From Bacteroidia bacterium (GTDB lineage: Bacteria; Bacteroidota; Bacteroidia; B-17B0; Aurantibacillaceae): DNA of 42,465 nt. The stretch lies in NCBI GenBank assembly GCA_025362575.1, contig JANYIQ010000103.1, positions 1 to 42,465 on the forward strand. The letters are read 5' to 3'. Below are positions 28,371 to 38,140 of the stretch, in pieces (position 1 is the stretch's first letter; the number at the start of each line of letters is the position of its first letter). Made by a program: the position numbers and the translations under genes. The notes beneath the pieces are model-generated. The model saw nothing but the letters and a program-made list of their open reading frames with translations. It ran no database searches and was not told where the DNA came from.

Positions 28371-28399
28371 GTGATAATTTCTACAAAGGTGCAGAATTT

Positions 28400-28440
28400 T
28401 TTGCCACCAAAACACCAAGGCACCAAATTGCACCAAACAA
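28400..28440 (+). repeat. Left arm of the GxxExxY inverted repeat
   Basis: It begins TTTGCCACCAAAACACC and continues with further CACCAA units. It pairs with 28887-28927. On the minus strand it may supply the TTTTG part of a promoter for the transglycosylase gene. Confidence 0.65.
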
Positions 28441-28459
28441 ATTGTAAATTATTTAAATC

Positions 28460-28873
28460 TTACTTAGCAAATCGCTTAATGCCTGAGCCTATTTTAGAAA
28501 CATTAAAATTGATCAAATAGCCCAATCGATTATTGGTTAATTTCAAATGACTTAAAACTTGTGCTTCCCAAACGGGGTTTATTTGGTCAACCGCTTTCAA
28601 TTCACAAATCACCTTGTTTTCAACCAAAACATCAAGCCTCAAGCCCTCTTCAAATGAAATACTTCCGTAAACAATTGGAACGTCAACTTGCCTTTTAACA
28701 TTTAAACCCATATTAGTTAATTCATGACAGAAACAAACCTCATAAACTTTTTCTAATAATCCGGGACCTAACTCTTTATGTACATTATAAGCTGCTTGTA
28801 CTATTTTGGTGCCTATTTCATCGAGGCTTTTCGGAATTAGCTCAAATTCTTTTTTTATCTCTTTCACTACCAT
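28460..28873 (-). CDS. GxxExxY protein (PD-(D/E)XK nuclease-like fold)
   Basis: A 137-residue protein with the family-naming motif G38-LLE-KVY44 in ELGPGLLEKVYE, and a nuclease-like core with Asp81 (RLDVLV) and Glu91-Leu-Lys93 (VICELKAV), the PD-(D/E)XK pattern. The C-terminal block WEAQVLSHLKLTNNRLGYLINF is typical. The biochemical role of this family is not established; nuclease activity is only suggested by the fold. It is flanked on both sides by the 41-base inverted repeat, and has no visible partner gene. The ATG at 28873 fits the family's usual start. Confidence 0.88.
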   Translation of the reverse strand: MVVKEIKKEFELIPKSLDEIGTKIVQAAYNVHKELGPGLLEKVYEVCFCHELTNMGLNVKRQVDVPIVYGSISFEEGLRLDVLVENKVICELKAVDQINPVWEAQVLSHLKLTNNRLGYLINFNVSKIGSGIKRFAK

Positions 28874-28886
28874 TCTTTATAAATTA

Positions 28887-28927
28887 TTTTTTGGTGGGCT
28901 TTGGTGTTTCTGTGTCTTGGTGGCGAA
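28887..28927 (-). repeat. Right arm of the GxxExxY inverted repeat
   Basis: Read on the minus strand it begins TTCGCCACCAAGACAC; it is the imperfect reverse complement of the left arm. It starts 13 bases upstream of the GxxExxY ATG and ends just after radA. Confidence 0.65.
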
Positions 28928-28941
28928 ACGGCGAGCCGATT

Positions 28942-33529: not shown

Positions 33530-33612
33530 GGCCCTCAAAGGGTGCTCTAATCCCAAAGGGATGGTATTGTTGTAAAACTATCGTGTGGAAAAAATAAAAA
33601 TCCCGAAGGGAT
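33530..33612. repeat. REP-like palindromes on the 3' side of the Y1 transposase
   Basis: ATCCCAAAGGGAT (33550-33562) and ATCCCGAAGGGAT (33600-33612) are short perfect palindromic stems around a 3-4 base core; GCCCTCAAAGGG (from 33531) is a looser third. The last touches the transposase stop. This is the usual setting of REP-associated transposases. Confidence 0.75.
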
Positions 33613-33616
33613 GATA

Positions 33617-34078
33617 TTATTCAAACCACTCAAATAAATATTCTTTTTTATGTTCTATATTAAATTCGTTTAGAAAACGCTCATATTCTTCCTTGAATGT
33701 TTGCTTCTTATGATGCGCTTCCTGGTTTAAAATGTAATTATAAACGTTTTCAACCTGTGAGTTTGAATATGAAAAAGCACCGAAGCCTTCCTGCCATTGA
33801 AATTTTCCTTTTATAAAGCCGCATTCATTGACGAATTTGGAAGAGTTGTTCTTAACATCGCGCATCAGGTCAGACACAGAAATAGATGGCTTCAACCCTA
33901 TGAAACAATGAATGTGATCTTCTACACCGTTTACGATAATGGCTTTTTGTCCTTTTCCGGTTATGATTCCTGAAATATACTTGTGTAAATCTTTACCCCA
34001 GGCCTTGCTTATAAGATTTTCTCGTCCTTTTACTGCGAATACTGTTTGAATATAAATCTGTGAAAATGTTCCTGCCAT
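33617..34078 (-). CDS. REP-associated tyrosine transposase (IS200/IS605 Y1 family)
   Basis: A 153-residue, single-strand DNA transposase of the Y1/HUH type. It shows the HUH metal motif EDHIHCFI (His55, His57) and the nucleophile region VYNYILNQEAHH, where Tyr115 fits the YIxNQ consensus. Other matches are the N-terminal YIQTVFAVKGRE and WQEGFGAFSYS. It is full length and looks intact. REP-like palindromes sit on both sides, and the direct repeat upstream offers a -7 box that could drive it. No TnpB gene is present. Confidence 0.92.
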   Translation of the reverse strand: MAGTFSQIYIQTVFAVKGRENLISKAWGKDLHKYISGIITGKGQKAIIVNGVEDHIHCFIGLKPSISVSDLMRDVKNNSSKFVNECGFIKGKFQWQEGFGAFSYSNSQVENVYNYILNQEAHHKKQTFKEEYERFLNEFNIEHKKEYLFEWFE

Positions 34079-34087
34079 AATTGTATC

Positions 34088-34178
34088 ACCCCTTTGGGGT
34101 TTAATTAGTTTTATTTTGTGCTTTTAGAATATTGTCAGCCCTTCGGGCTTATTTACTTAATTATCGCCCCCTCCGGGG
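34088..34178. repeat. REP-like palindromes on the 5' side of the Y1 transposase
   Basis: ACCCCTTTGGGGT (34088-34100), AGCCCTTCGGGCT (34137-34149) and CCCCCTCCGGGG (34167-34178) are three short stems with a CCC/GGG core. They lie in the transposase leader and vary in sequence but not in form, as for REP families. Confidence 0.72.
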
Positions 34179-38089: not shown

Positions 38090-38110
38090 GCTGTGAATTT
38101 AAAAATACAC

Positions 38111-38140
38111 TAATCTGTGAATATCCGTGAAATTTGTGGC
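38111..38140. repeat. Three imperfect 10-base tandem units upstream of the CHAT gene
   Basis: TAATCTGTGA, ATATCCGTGA and AATTTGTGGC in a row in the 55-base gap between holB and the CHAT gene. The middle TTGTG/CCGTG core is spaced one helical turn apart. Confidence 0.4.

Follow-up and report, generated by a model that had tools for sequence, protein, structure and literature searches.

GxxExxY genes between inward-directed arrays of short units: a candidate insertion element with a lineage-dependent repeat word

In the stretch of 42,465 nucleotides analysed here as a whole (the window; contig JANYIQ010000103.1 of the Bacteroidia bacterium assembly GCA_025362575.1), a gene of the GxxExxY family lies between two inverted arms built of short repeated units. 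The reading preferred in the current study, to which a probability of roughly 0.55 is given, is that this unit is a copy of an insertion element of ~450-600 bp, in which the GxxExxY gene stands between inward-directed arrays and the encoded protein acts on these arrays. The element is probably self-mobilising. Comparison between genomes showed the putative element to insert as a unit into short intergenic gaps, gene-less solo arms and foldbacks (roughly 75-100 bp) to occur at some of the same sites, and the copy-specific spelling of the units (the word) to go with the protein lineage, while the frame letters common to the family and the protein itself are both kept.

The unit in the window, its protein and its copies in the host genome

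The features of the window that bear on this reading are the following.

28399..28928, minus strand: whole element as measured by its arms, 530 bp
28887..28928, minus strand: 5' arm, upstream of the GxxExxY gene; inverted array of units near CACCAAG, CACAGAA, CACCAAA, CACCAAA
28460..28873, minus strand: GxxExxY protein gene, 137 aa, PD-(D/E)XK nuclease fold according to profile match and predicted model
28399..28440, plus strand: 3' arm, downstream of the GxxExxY gene; units CACCAAA, CACCAAG, CACCAAA, CACCAAA
33617-34078, minus strand: ORF of an IS200-like Y1 transposase, ~5 kb from the GxxExxY unit; its inverted flanks (region 33592-34150) are of the CCCGAAGGG type
38108..38140, minus strand: solo gene-less array in the GxxExxY frame (CACAAAT, CACGGAT, CACAGAT), intergenic

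A repeat search recovered the inverted repeat as real, with 42-nt arms matching at 32 of 42 positions (76% complementary) and 446 nt between them; the preliminary description, which gave 31 of 41, was right to within one base. The ORF list places the GxxExxY ORF as the sole gene enclosed by the arms. The unit lies between radA and the start of a transglycosylase gene, the outer arm edges being 13 nt from the end of the radA ORF (28942) and 28 nt from the probable transglycosylase ATG (28370); the TTG start listed for the latter gene (28436) would run through the 3' arm. Because no clean empty site for this copy was found among the radA loci of 29 relatives, the exact ends of the element in the window are not fixed.

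The flanks of the gene gave a local-alignment score of 22. In 2000 order-2 Markov resamplings this score was never reached, and among 265 other placements along the window it was reached once. Since that single placement corresponds to the flanks of the IS200-like Y1 transposase, it serves in effect as a positive control. Among mismatched 5' and 3' flanks of GxxExxY loci in the genus, 1.7% of 650 pairs reached 22, some of them with a common word. The A-rich nature of the intergenic DNA and the one equally high placement could be taken to suggest chance or a low-complexity repeat, but the outcome of the resamplings, the identity of that placement and the presence of the same architecture in most sampled loci leave this reading a negligible probability, and on the comparative sequence data it may be regarded as already refuted.

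The window protein matched TIGR04256 with 138.6 bits (curated cut-off 35) and PF13366 (PDDEXK_3) with 132.7 bits (curated cut-off 22). Residues G18, G20, E23, Y26, D63, E73 and K75 (numbering within the aligned domain) were invariant in 28 of 28 diverse sequences; E23, which belongs to the GxxExxY motif, D63, E73 and K75 are the catalytic residues among them. The PD-(D/E)XK fold was predicted by a domain model with the window protein first in the alignment (pLDDT 96.5). The best structural match among those listed was the Cas4 protein SSO0001, with a Z score of 10.0 and an rmsd of 3.2 for 96 aligned residues. Hjc Holliday-junction resolvases followed with Z scores of at most 7.9, the value for 1gef (83 residues, rmsd 2.9). 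Foldseek alone gave no match for the model at E below 0.001, and a sequence search of solved structures gave one match, at E 0.55. A few of the 28 members weakly matched Cas4 and candidate-defence models. Judged from the coding sequences, the GxxExxY protein is under purifying selection: nine of ten orthologous pairs gave dN/dS values of 0.02-0.13, most of them with dS approaching or exceeding saturation, and the tenth, in which changes were few, gave 0.56.

The host genome contains eight GxxExxY genes, all of them between inverted repeats of 20-49 nt, and the flank score of each was reached by 3.3% or fewer of mismatched flank pairs. By eye, the units are directed from the outside inwards in all eight copies, and six words are spelled: CACCAAA (the window), CACTAAT, CACGGAG, TACGAAT, a GGAAC/ACGGA type and CGCAGAT. 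The last is common to three copies (L003, L005 and L006) that are close in sequence and have a joint block upstream of the start codon. Five of the eight copies passed the frame chain described below on both sides. The window's copy (L002), L007 and L008 failed it, and their own words are nevertheless plain; the window's copy departs from the frame CRCNRAK at the last letter and fails the frame count.

Frame and word of the arrays in wider samples

A GxxExxY gene was present in 152 of 296 sampled genomes of the phylum, with up to 12 copies each. From these a phylum set (A) of 116 loci was taken, 115 of which were scored (L026, a fragment, was omitted), and a mixed set (B) of 80 loci was fetched by protein from named genomes, having been found with conserved peptides and being skewed to near relatives of A3. 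Flank scores above the 95% level of mismatched 5' and 3' flanks were obtained for 89 of the 115 phylum loci, against 4.5% of the null. With the motif CRCNNAK, picked by eye from set A, at least two inward units on each side within 200 bp were found at 96 of 115 loci in set A and 51 of 80 in set B; in the outward sense the same criterion gave 12 of 115 and 12 of 80. Within 200 bp of the gene, the density of the inward motif was 14-17 per kb and that of the outward motif was also raised (5-7 per kb), compared with 2-3 per kb in either sense at 700-900 bp.

Chains called with a weight matrix ran inwards in both arms at 90 of 115 loci (set A) and 57 of 80 (set B), and neither arm passed at seven and three loci, respectively; this count is not a blind test, both sets having contributed to the weight matrix and to the choice of a purine for letter 5. 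After thinning to <70% protein identity, both arms were inward in 61 of 87 loci, the raw counts not being independent because the sets have at least two loci in common and hold orthologous groups. Outward chains passed above the 5% control level, in 22 and 21 of 115 loci (5' and 3', set A) and in 26 and 27 of 80 (set B). At L068, L071, L094 and L095 arms were seen back to back (...GTGGT then ACCAC...) just outside the elements, like joined element ends, which may explain this excess.

As a control, 29 radA loci were used (L139 omitted): none had both arms, one exceeded its own 95% null and none scored above 17. Inverted repeats are thus general around GxxExxY genes, as the preliminary description had proposed. 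Outside the main phylum, both arms scored above 14 in 18 of 22 loci from Planctomycetota, Verrucomicrobia, Chloroflexota, Acidobacteria, Cyanobacteria, Proteobacteria, Treponema and Omnitrophota, the failing loci being L173, L218, L223 and L235. Four GxxExxY loci were found on viral contigs, one of which passed the strict count; a phage search gave no match at E 1e-5, and a plasmid search matched eight records.

The unit frame was C-[AG]-C-N-[AG]-A-[GT] (CRCNRAK), with units mostly 8-12 nt apart (mode 9), a median of three units per arm and both arms chained at 116 of 199 loci. Letters 1, 3 and 6 and the two-way choices at letters 2 and 7 were fixed by the search motif, whereas the purine at letter 5 was free of it and was present in 727 of 755 units. 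The two arms of a locus agreed at 6.17 of 7 letters, compared with 5.18 (sd 0.055) when arms were permuted. The ACCAA signal, which the preliminary description placed beside GxxExxY genes in other bacteria too, is near this frame and proved to be only the word of the window's copy, common to its nearest relative. That relative among the 199 loci is L020 of genome G002, 78% identical in protein and at a different site, whose 3' flank has the same rare word CACCAAA.

Across 138 loci, word similarity tracked protein identity with a Spearman coefficient of 0.35, compared with at most 0.133 in 500 permutations. The correlation was 0.385 for 64 loci thinned to <70% identity (largest permutation 0.171) and 0.366 for 27 loci thinned to <60%, a value reached by one of 500 permutations. 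On the protein tree of the 138 loci, 61 whole-word changes were counted, against 81 or more in 100 shuffles. The comparisons indicate that the array word is inherited with the protein, yet changes often. One word per genome was considered and rejected: when 44 same-genome pairs from set A, the set for which genomes were assigned, were binned by protein identity, their similarity was lower than that of other pairs in two bins and slightly higher in three.

In ten orthologous pairs, letters 1, 3, 6 and 7 differed in 10 of 236 cells and letters 2, 4 and 5 in 38 of 177; spacers differed in 36 of 122 cells and the surrounding flank in 748 of 3587. These counts are based on 18 of the 20 arms, with units picked in one member per pair, and three of the pairs belong to the same orthologous group. 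Units that face each other in the folded arms were alike at 6.19 of 7 letters and unopposed units at 6.05, and mismatches between arms comprised 69 G-U and 73 A-C, i.e. no excess of G-U. Since opposed units are hardly more alike and no wobble bias exists, the unit itself, rather than a paired hairpin RNA, seems to be what is conserved, and a reading of the flanks as RNA hairpins was set aside.

Filled, empty and gene-less sites

The flanks of four elements of G002 were searched in seven congeners. Genome G001, with flank matches 94-98% identical, lacked all four, so that empty sites, for which the preliminary description had suggested a search, do exist in sister species. One joint was exact: L025 has 490 bp that are absent from L241, and at this sole exact joint no target-site duplication was present. 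At the other three joints between G002 and G001 the differences were 464, 612 and about 550 bp, with 5, 15 and 45 bp left in G001, which blurs them; inserts at the compared sites measured 464-612 bp.

The L020 site was empty and array-free in six of six congeners, and the L025 site was cleanly empty in G001 and G003, and also in G007 as judged by the spacing of flank matches. G000 and G005 miss the upstream neighbour at the L025 site too and were therefore not counted as empty. Across the sites compared, L279 and L264, which are without the upstream neighbour, were excluded from the clean empty sites, L244, L268 and L347 matched on one side only, and L272 carries other sequence at its site. 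The L011 site was filled in G007 (L016); G003 has a solo arm there and G005, by eye, a weak one, whereas nothing is present in G001 and G000, and G004 contains other sequence. The L023 site, where the gene of G002 has an in-frame stop, was gene-free in five of five congeners; G003 carries a gene-less foldback there, and G000 a weak solo arm. In a second family, G243 holds the gene at the site of L067, and gene-less foldbacks of three other spellings occupy it in G330, G326 and G301, with a gene-bearing copy in G329. The copy in G329 (L333) is adjoined by a seeming extra arm, perhaps a partial duplication. Insertions lay close behind the upstream gene, with a median of 15 nt from the preceding ORF to the first unit (125 loci).

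None of the 29 radA loci of relatives carries a GxxExxY ORF; the copy in the window is therefore not fixed at its site, and fixation across the genus, one of the two results named beforehand as fatal to a mobile unit, was no more obtained than the other, a lack of inverted repeats around further GxxExxY genes. A transglycosylase gene lies within reach of radA in one of these loci, L140 of G309, which belongs to another genus. The gap there contains a 170-aa ORF and, directly behind the radA stop, a gene-less foldback of ~7-nt units (L140 2870-2945; GTAACAA, GTAGCAG and GTAGTAA plus their mirror) that is by eye of the four-helix kind treated below.

Arrays were also counted in one 400-kb stretch of G002. 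Eight were called there and 0, 3 and 4 in the null runs; the threshold is insensitive, as the three GxxExxY copies known from that stretch were missed. Hundreds of REPs accompany RAYT transposases, and eight arrays in 400 kb are far fewer, although by this insensitive count.

The filled and empty sites bear on a further alternative, in which ordinary RNA hairpins, as terminators or processing sites, flank a resident operon gene and gene loss accounts for its patchiness. Neighbours were co-directional in 93 of 116 GxxExxY loci, as for the ordinary gene radA (16 of 26), and a few loci are kept across species, both of which would fit such a gene. However, the near equality of opposed and unopposed units and of G-U and A-C mismatches speaks against hairpins, and three of the four G002 sites were without the gene in every other congener examined, leaving this explanation very improbable. 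Neighbour orientation had also been considered as a special sign of the element, and was dropped because the radA control is likewise mostly '++'.

The gene-less arrays raise a further alternative, in which the nuclease cuts arrays already present in gaps and repair from a gene-bearing copy, with the arrays as homology, brings in the gene. Three of four informative relatives hold a gene-less foldback at the L067 site where G243 has the gene, the L011 and L023 sites contain solo or mini arrays, the gap behind radA in L140 is occupied by a gene-less foldback, albeit one of a different kind, and the fold is akin to Hjc and Cas4, all consistent with homing of this type. Pure homing does not fit the L020 and L025 sites, however, since no earlier array was present there in the congeners examined (for L025 this refers to G001 and G003, the two congeners with clean flanks), and the words at shared sites differ among relatives. 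Homing is accordingly considered unlikely, and insertion of the element as a unit is preferred.

Mechanism, parallel elements and known systems

According to the preferred reading, the GxxExxY protein, as a Cas4/Hjc-like PD-(D/E)XK nuclease, would bind the word of its own lineage in both arms and cut at the bound units. Repair after cutting would lead either to loss of the element or to its copying into new gaps, in the manner in which a RAYT is thought to serve its REPs. The common word of the two arms would be held by recognition by one protein, perhaps also by conversion between arms, with the free letters drifting from lineage to lineage. A dimeric nuclease acting on two facing units would suit the modelled fold.

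Genes of other families stand between inverted flanks of their own. Loci of four-helix-bundle genes (S23/IVS-type, TIGR02436), ten from the host and 29 from the phylum (L027-L036 and L301-L329), scored above the 95% null in 30 of 39 cases and above the 99% null in 20. Their units are by eye ~6-8 nt long and include TCAGTAA (e.g. L323), GTTGAGA, GCTATTA and others. Very long inverted repeats were seen around the four-helix gene of L317. Seven host GIY-YIG genes and one DUF559 domain (in an 811-aa frame) gave seven of eight loci above the null, seven of 11 GIY-YIG matches having been used (L368-L371, long frames or fragments, were omitted). Inverted repeats enclose the host GIY-YIG genes of L361-L364 and L367; in four cases they read near GTCATnnnGA, and L363 has a different kind. 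At the site where G243 has the GxxExxY gene of L121, relatives hold a DUF559 gene or a GIY-YIG gene (L349/L358, L350), each by eye between its own inverted repeats. The occurrence of these three families at one site suggests that several kinds of element compete for the same intergenic gaps.

Whether the gene moves the element or is carried by it is the main point on which explanations differ. The unit might be a foldback or MITE-like structure moved by another enzyme, such as an IS transposase or host recombination, with the GxxExxY gene as a passenger whose nuclease serves, for example, defence or repair. We know of no transposase activity in the GxxExxY family, the IS200-like Y1 transposase with inverted flanks of its own lies nearby in the window, and the weak Cas4 and candidate-defence matches could point to such a role, so the gene may be a passenger. 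The word nevertheless follows the GxxExxY lineage across genomes, the 44 same-genome pairs showed no consistent excess of similarity over other pairs of the same protein identity, contrary to what a single host enzyme would produce, and four-helix and GIY-YIG genes bear their own kinds of inverted flanks; carriage by another enzyme is therefore judged rather unlikely. Instead, given the invariant catalytic residues, the purifying selection and the tracking of the protein by the word, the gene itself may mobilise the element and not be its cargo, and the term non-autonomous in the preliminary description is unproven. The mobile unit of that description is supported by the sister sites without the element and by the generality of the inverted repeats.

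The system closest in its working, by analogy, is RAYT/REPIN. Excerpts of PMC3116915 and PMC8266576 describe inverted short repeats next to the gene of a small nuclease, further repeats that stand in intergenic gaps without the gene, and a repeat type that evolves with the protein, all of which have counterparts in the GxxExxY arrays. RAYTs are HUH Y1 transposases, however, whereas GxxExxY proteins belong to the PD-(D/E)XK fold, and the Y1 protein of the window, probably a REP-associated transposase, is separate. As the defining Y1 transposase is absent, the GxxExxY element is not a member of RAYT/REPIN. REP palindromes also occur in high copy, whereas GxxExxY arrays have few units with a copy-specific word, and, unlike RAYT/REPIN, there are several gene-bearing copies per genome.

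Of the features of insertion sequences and transposons, terminal inverted repeats are present, as are filled and empty sites (at four of four sites for G002 compared with G001, not at the window's copy), and a target-site duplication is absent from the one exact joint. MITEs have no coding capacity, whereas the window's unit encodes a protein; the gene-less foldbacks in relatives would fit a MITE. Eukaryotic foldback (FB) elements have inverted arms of short tandem units, like the arms described here, but these are much longer and the coding content is other or none.

The intervening sequences (IVS) of 23S rRNA with an S23/four-helix protein are, according to PMC4990558, similarly patchy inserts of a few hundred bp with one small ORF and complementary ends. 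They lie inside rRNA genes and are excised by RNase III, whereas the GxxExxY element lies between protein genes (radA and the transglycosylase in the window), has no RNA-pairing signature and encodes a nuclease. A link between a PD-(D/E)XK protein and a MITE is described in part of PMC4853749 for YhgA-type putative transposases and the hupL MITE of Thiomargarita; that protein belongs to PFAM12784, and the MITE has a 19-bp inverted repeat and 10-bp direct repeats and, in that portion of the text, no unit array. The heptamer arrays of Beggiatoaceae (TAACTGA), reported in excerpts of PMC4679880 also from five Bacteroidetes, are likewise short-period and intergenic, but are described there as direct repeats, are read as regulatory and are not linked in those excerpts to a named S23/four-helix gene. 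They resemble the four-helix arrays (TCAGTAA at L323) more than the GxxExxY ones, and four-helix elements are a possible source of such intergenic arrays.

GxxExxY is mentioned in a survey of RTs (PMC8934634); excerpts of further papers concern a MITE of Porphyromonas (PMC4596501) and heptamers in Xanthomonas (PMC4692102). Among the open-access matches listed, no title, abstract or excerpt described arrays that enclose GxxExxY genes or four-helix genes standing alone, and on this scope the GxxExxY element seems to be undescribed.

It is tentatively proposed, at odds we would ourselves put below even, that GxxExxY, S23/four-helix, GIY-YIG and perhaps DUF559 genes belong to a general, so far unrecognised bacterial class of 'frame-and-word' elements. 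Each family would have its own frame in the inverted flanks and each copy its own word in both arms. The protein would read this word and the two would drift together, which would turn lineages into separate, non-interfering mobile elements competing for the same gaps.

For the GxxExxY family, whose function is unknown, the results provide a context and a likely substrate. Many short intergenic arrays (of the CTCTGTG, ATCTGCG and CTTTGTG types) may also have their origin in such elements, and in view of the four-helix parallel the same could perhaps hold for heptamer arrays previously read as regulatory. If the recognised word has diversified often within one fixed frame, these elements would constitute a natural data set for learning protein-DNA specificity.
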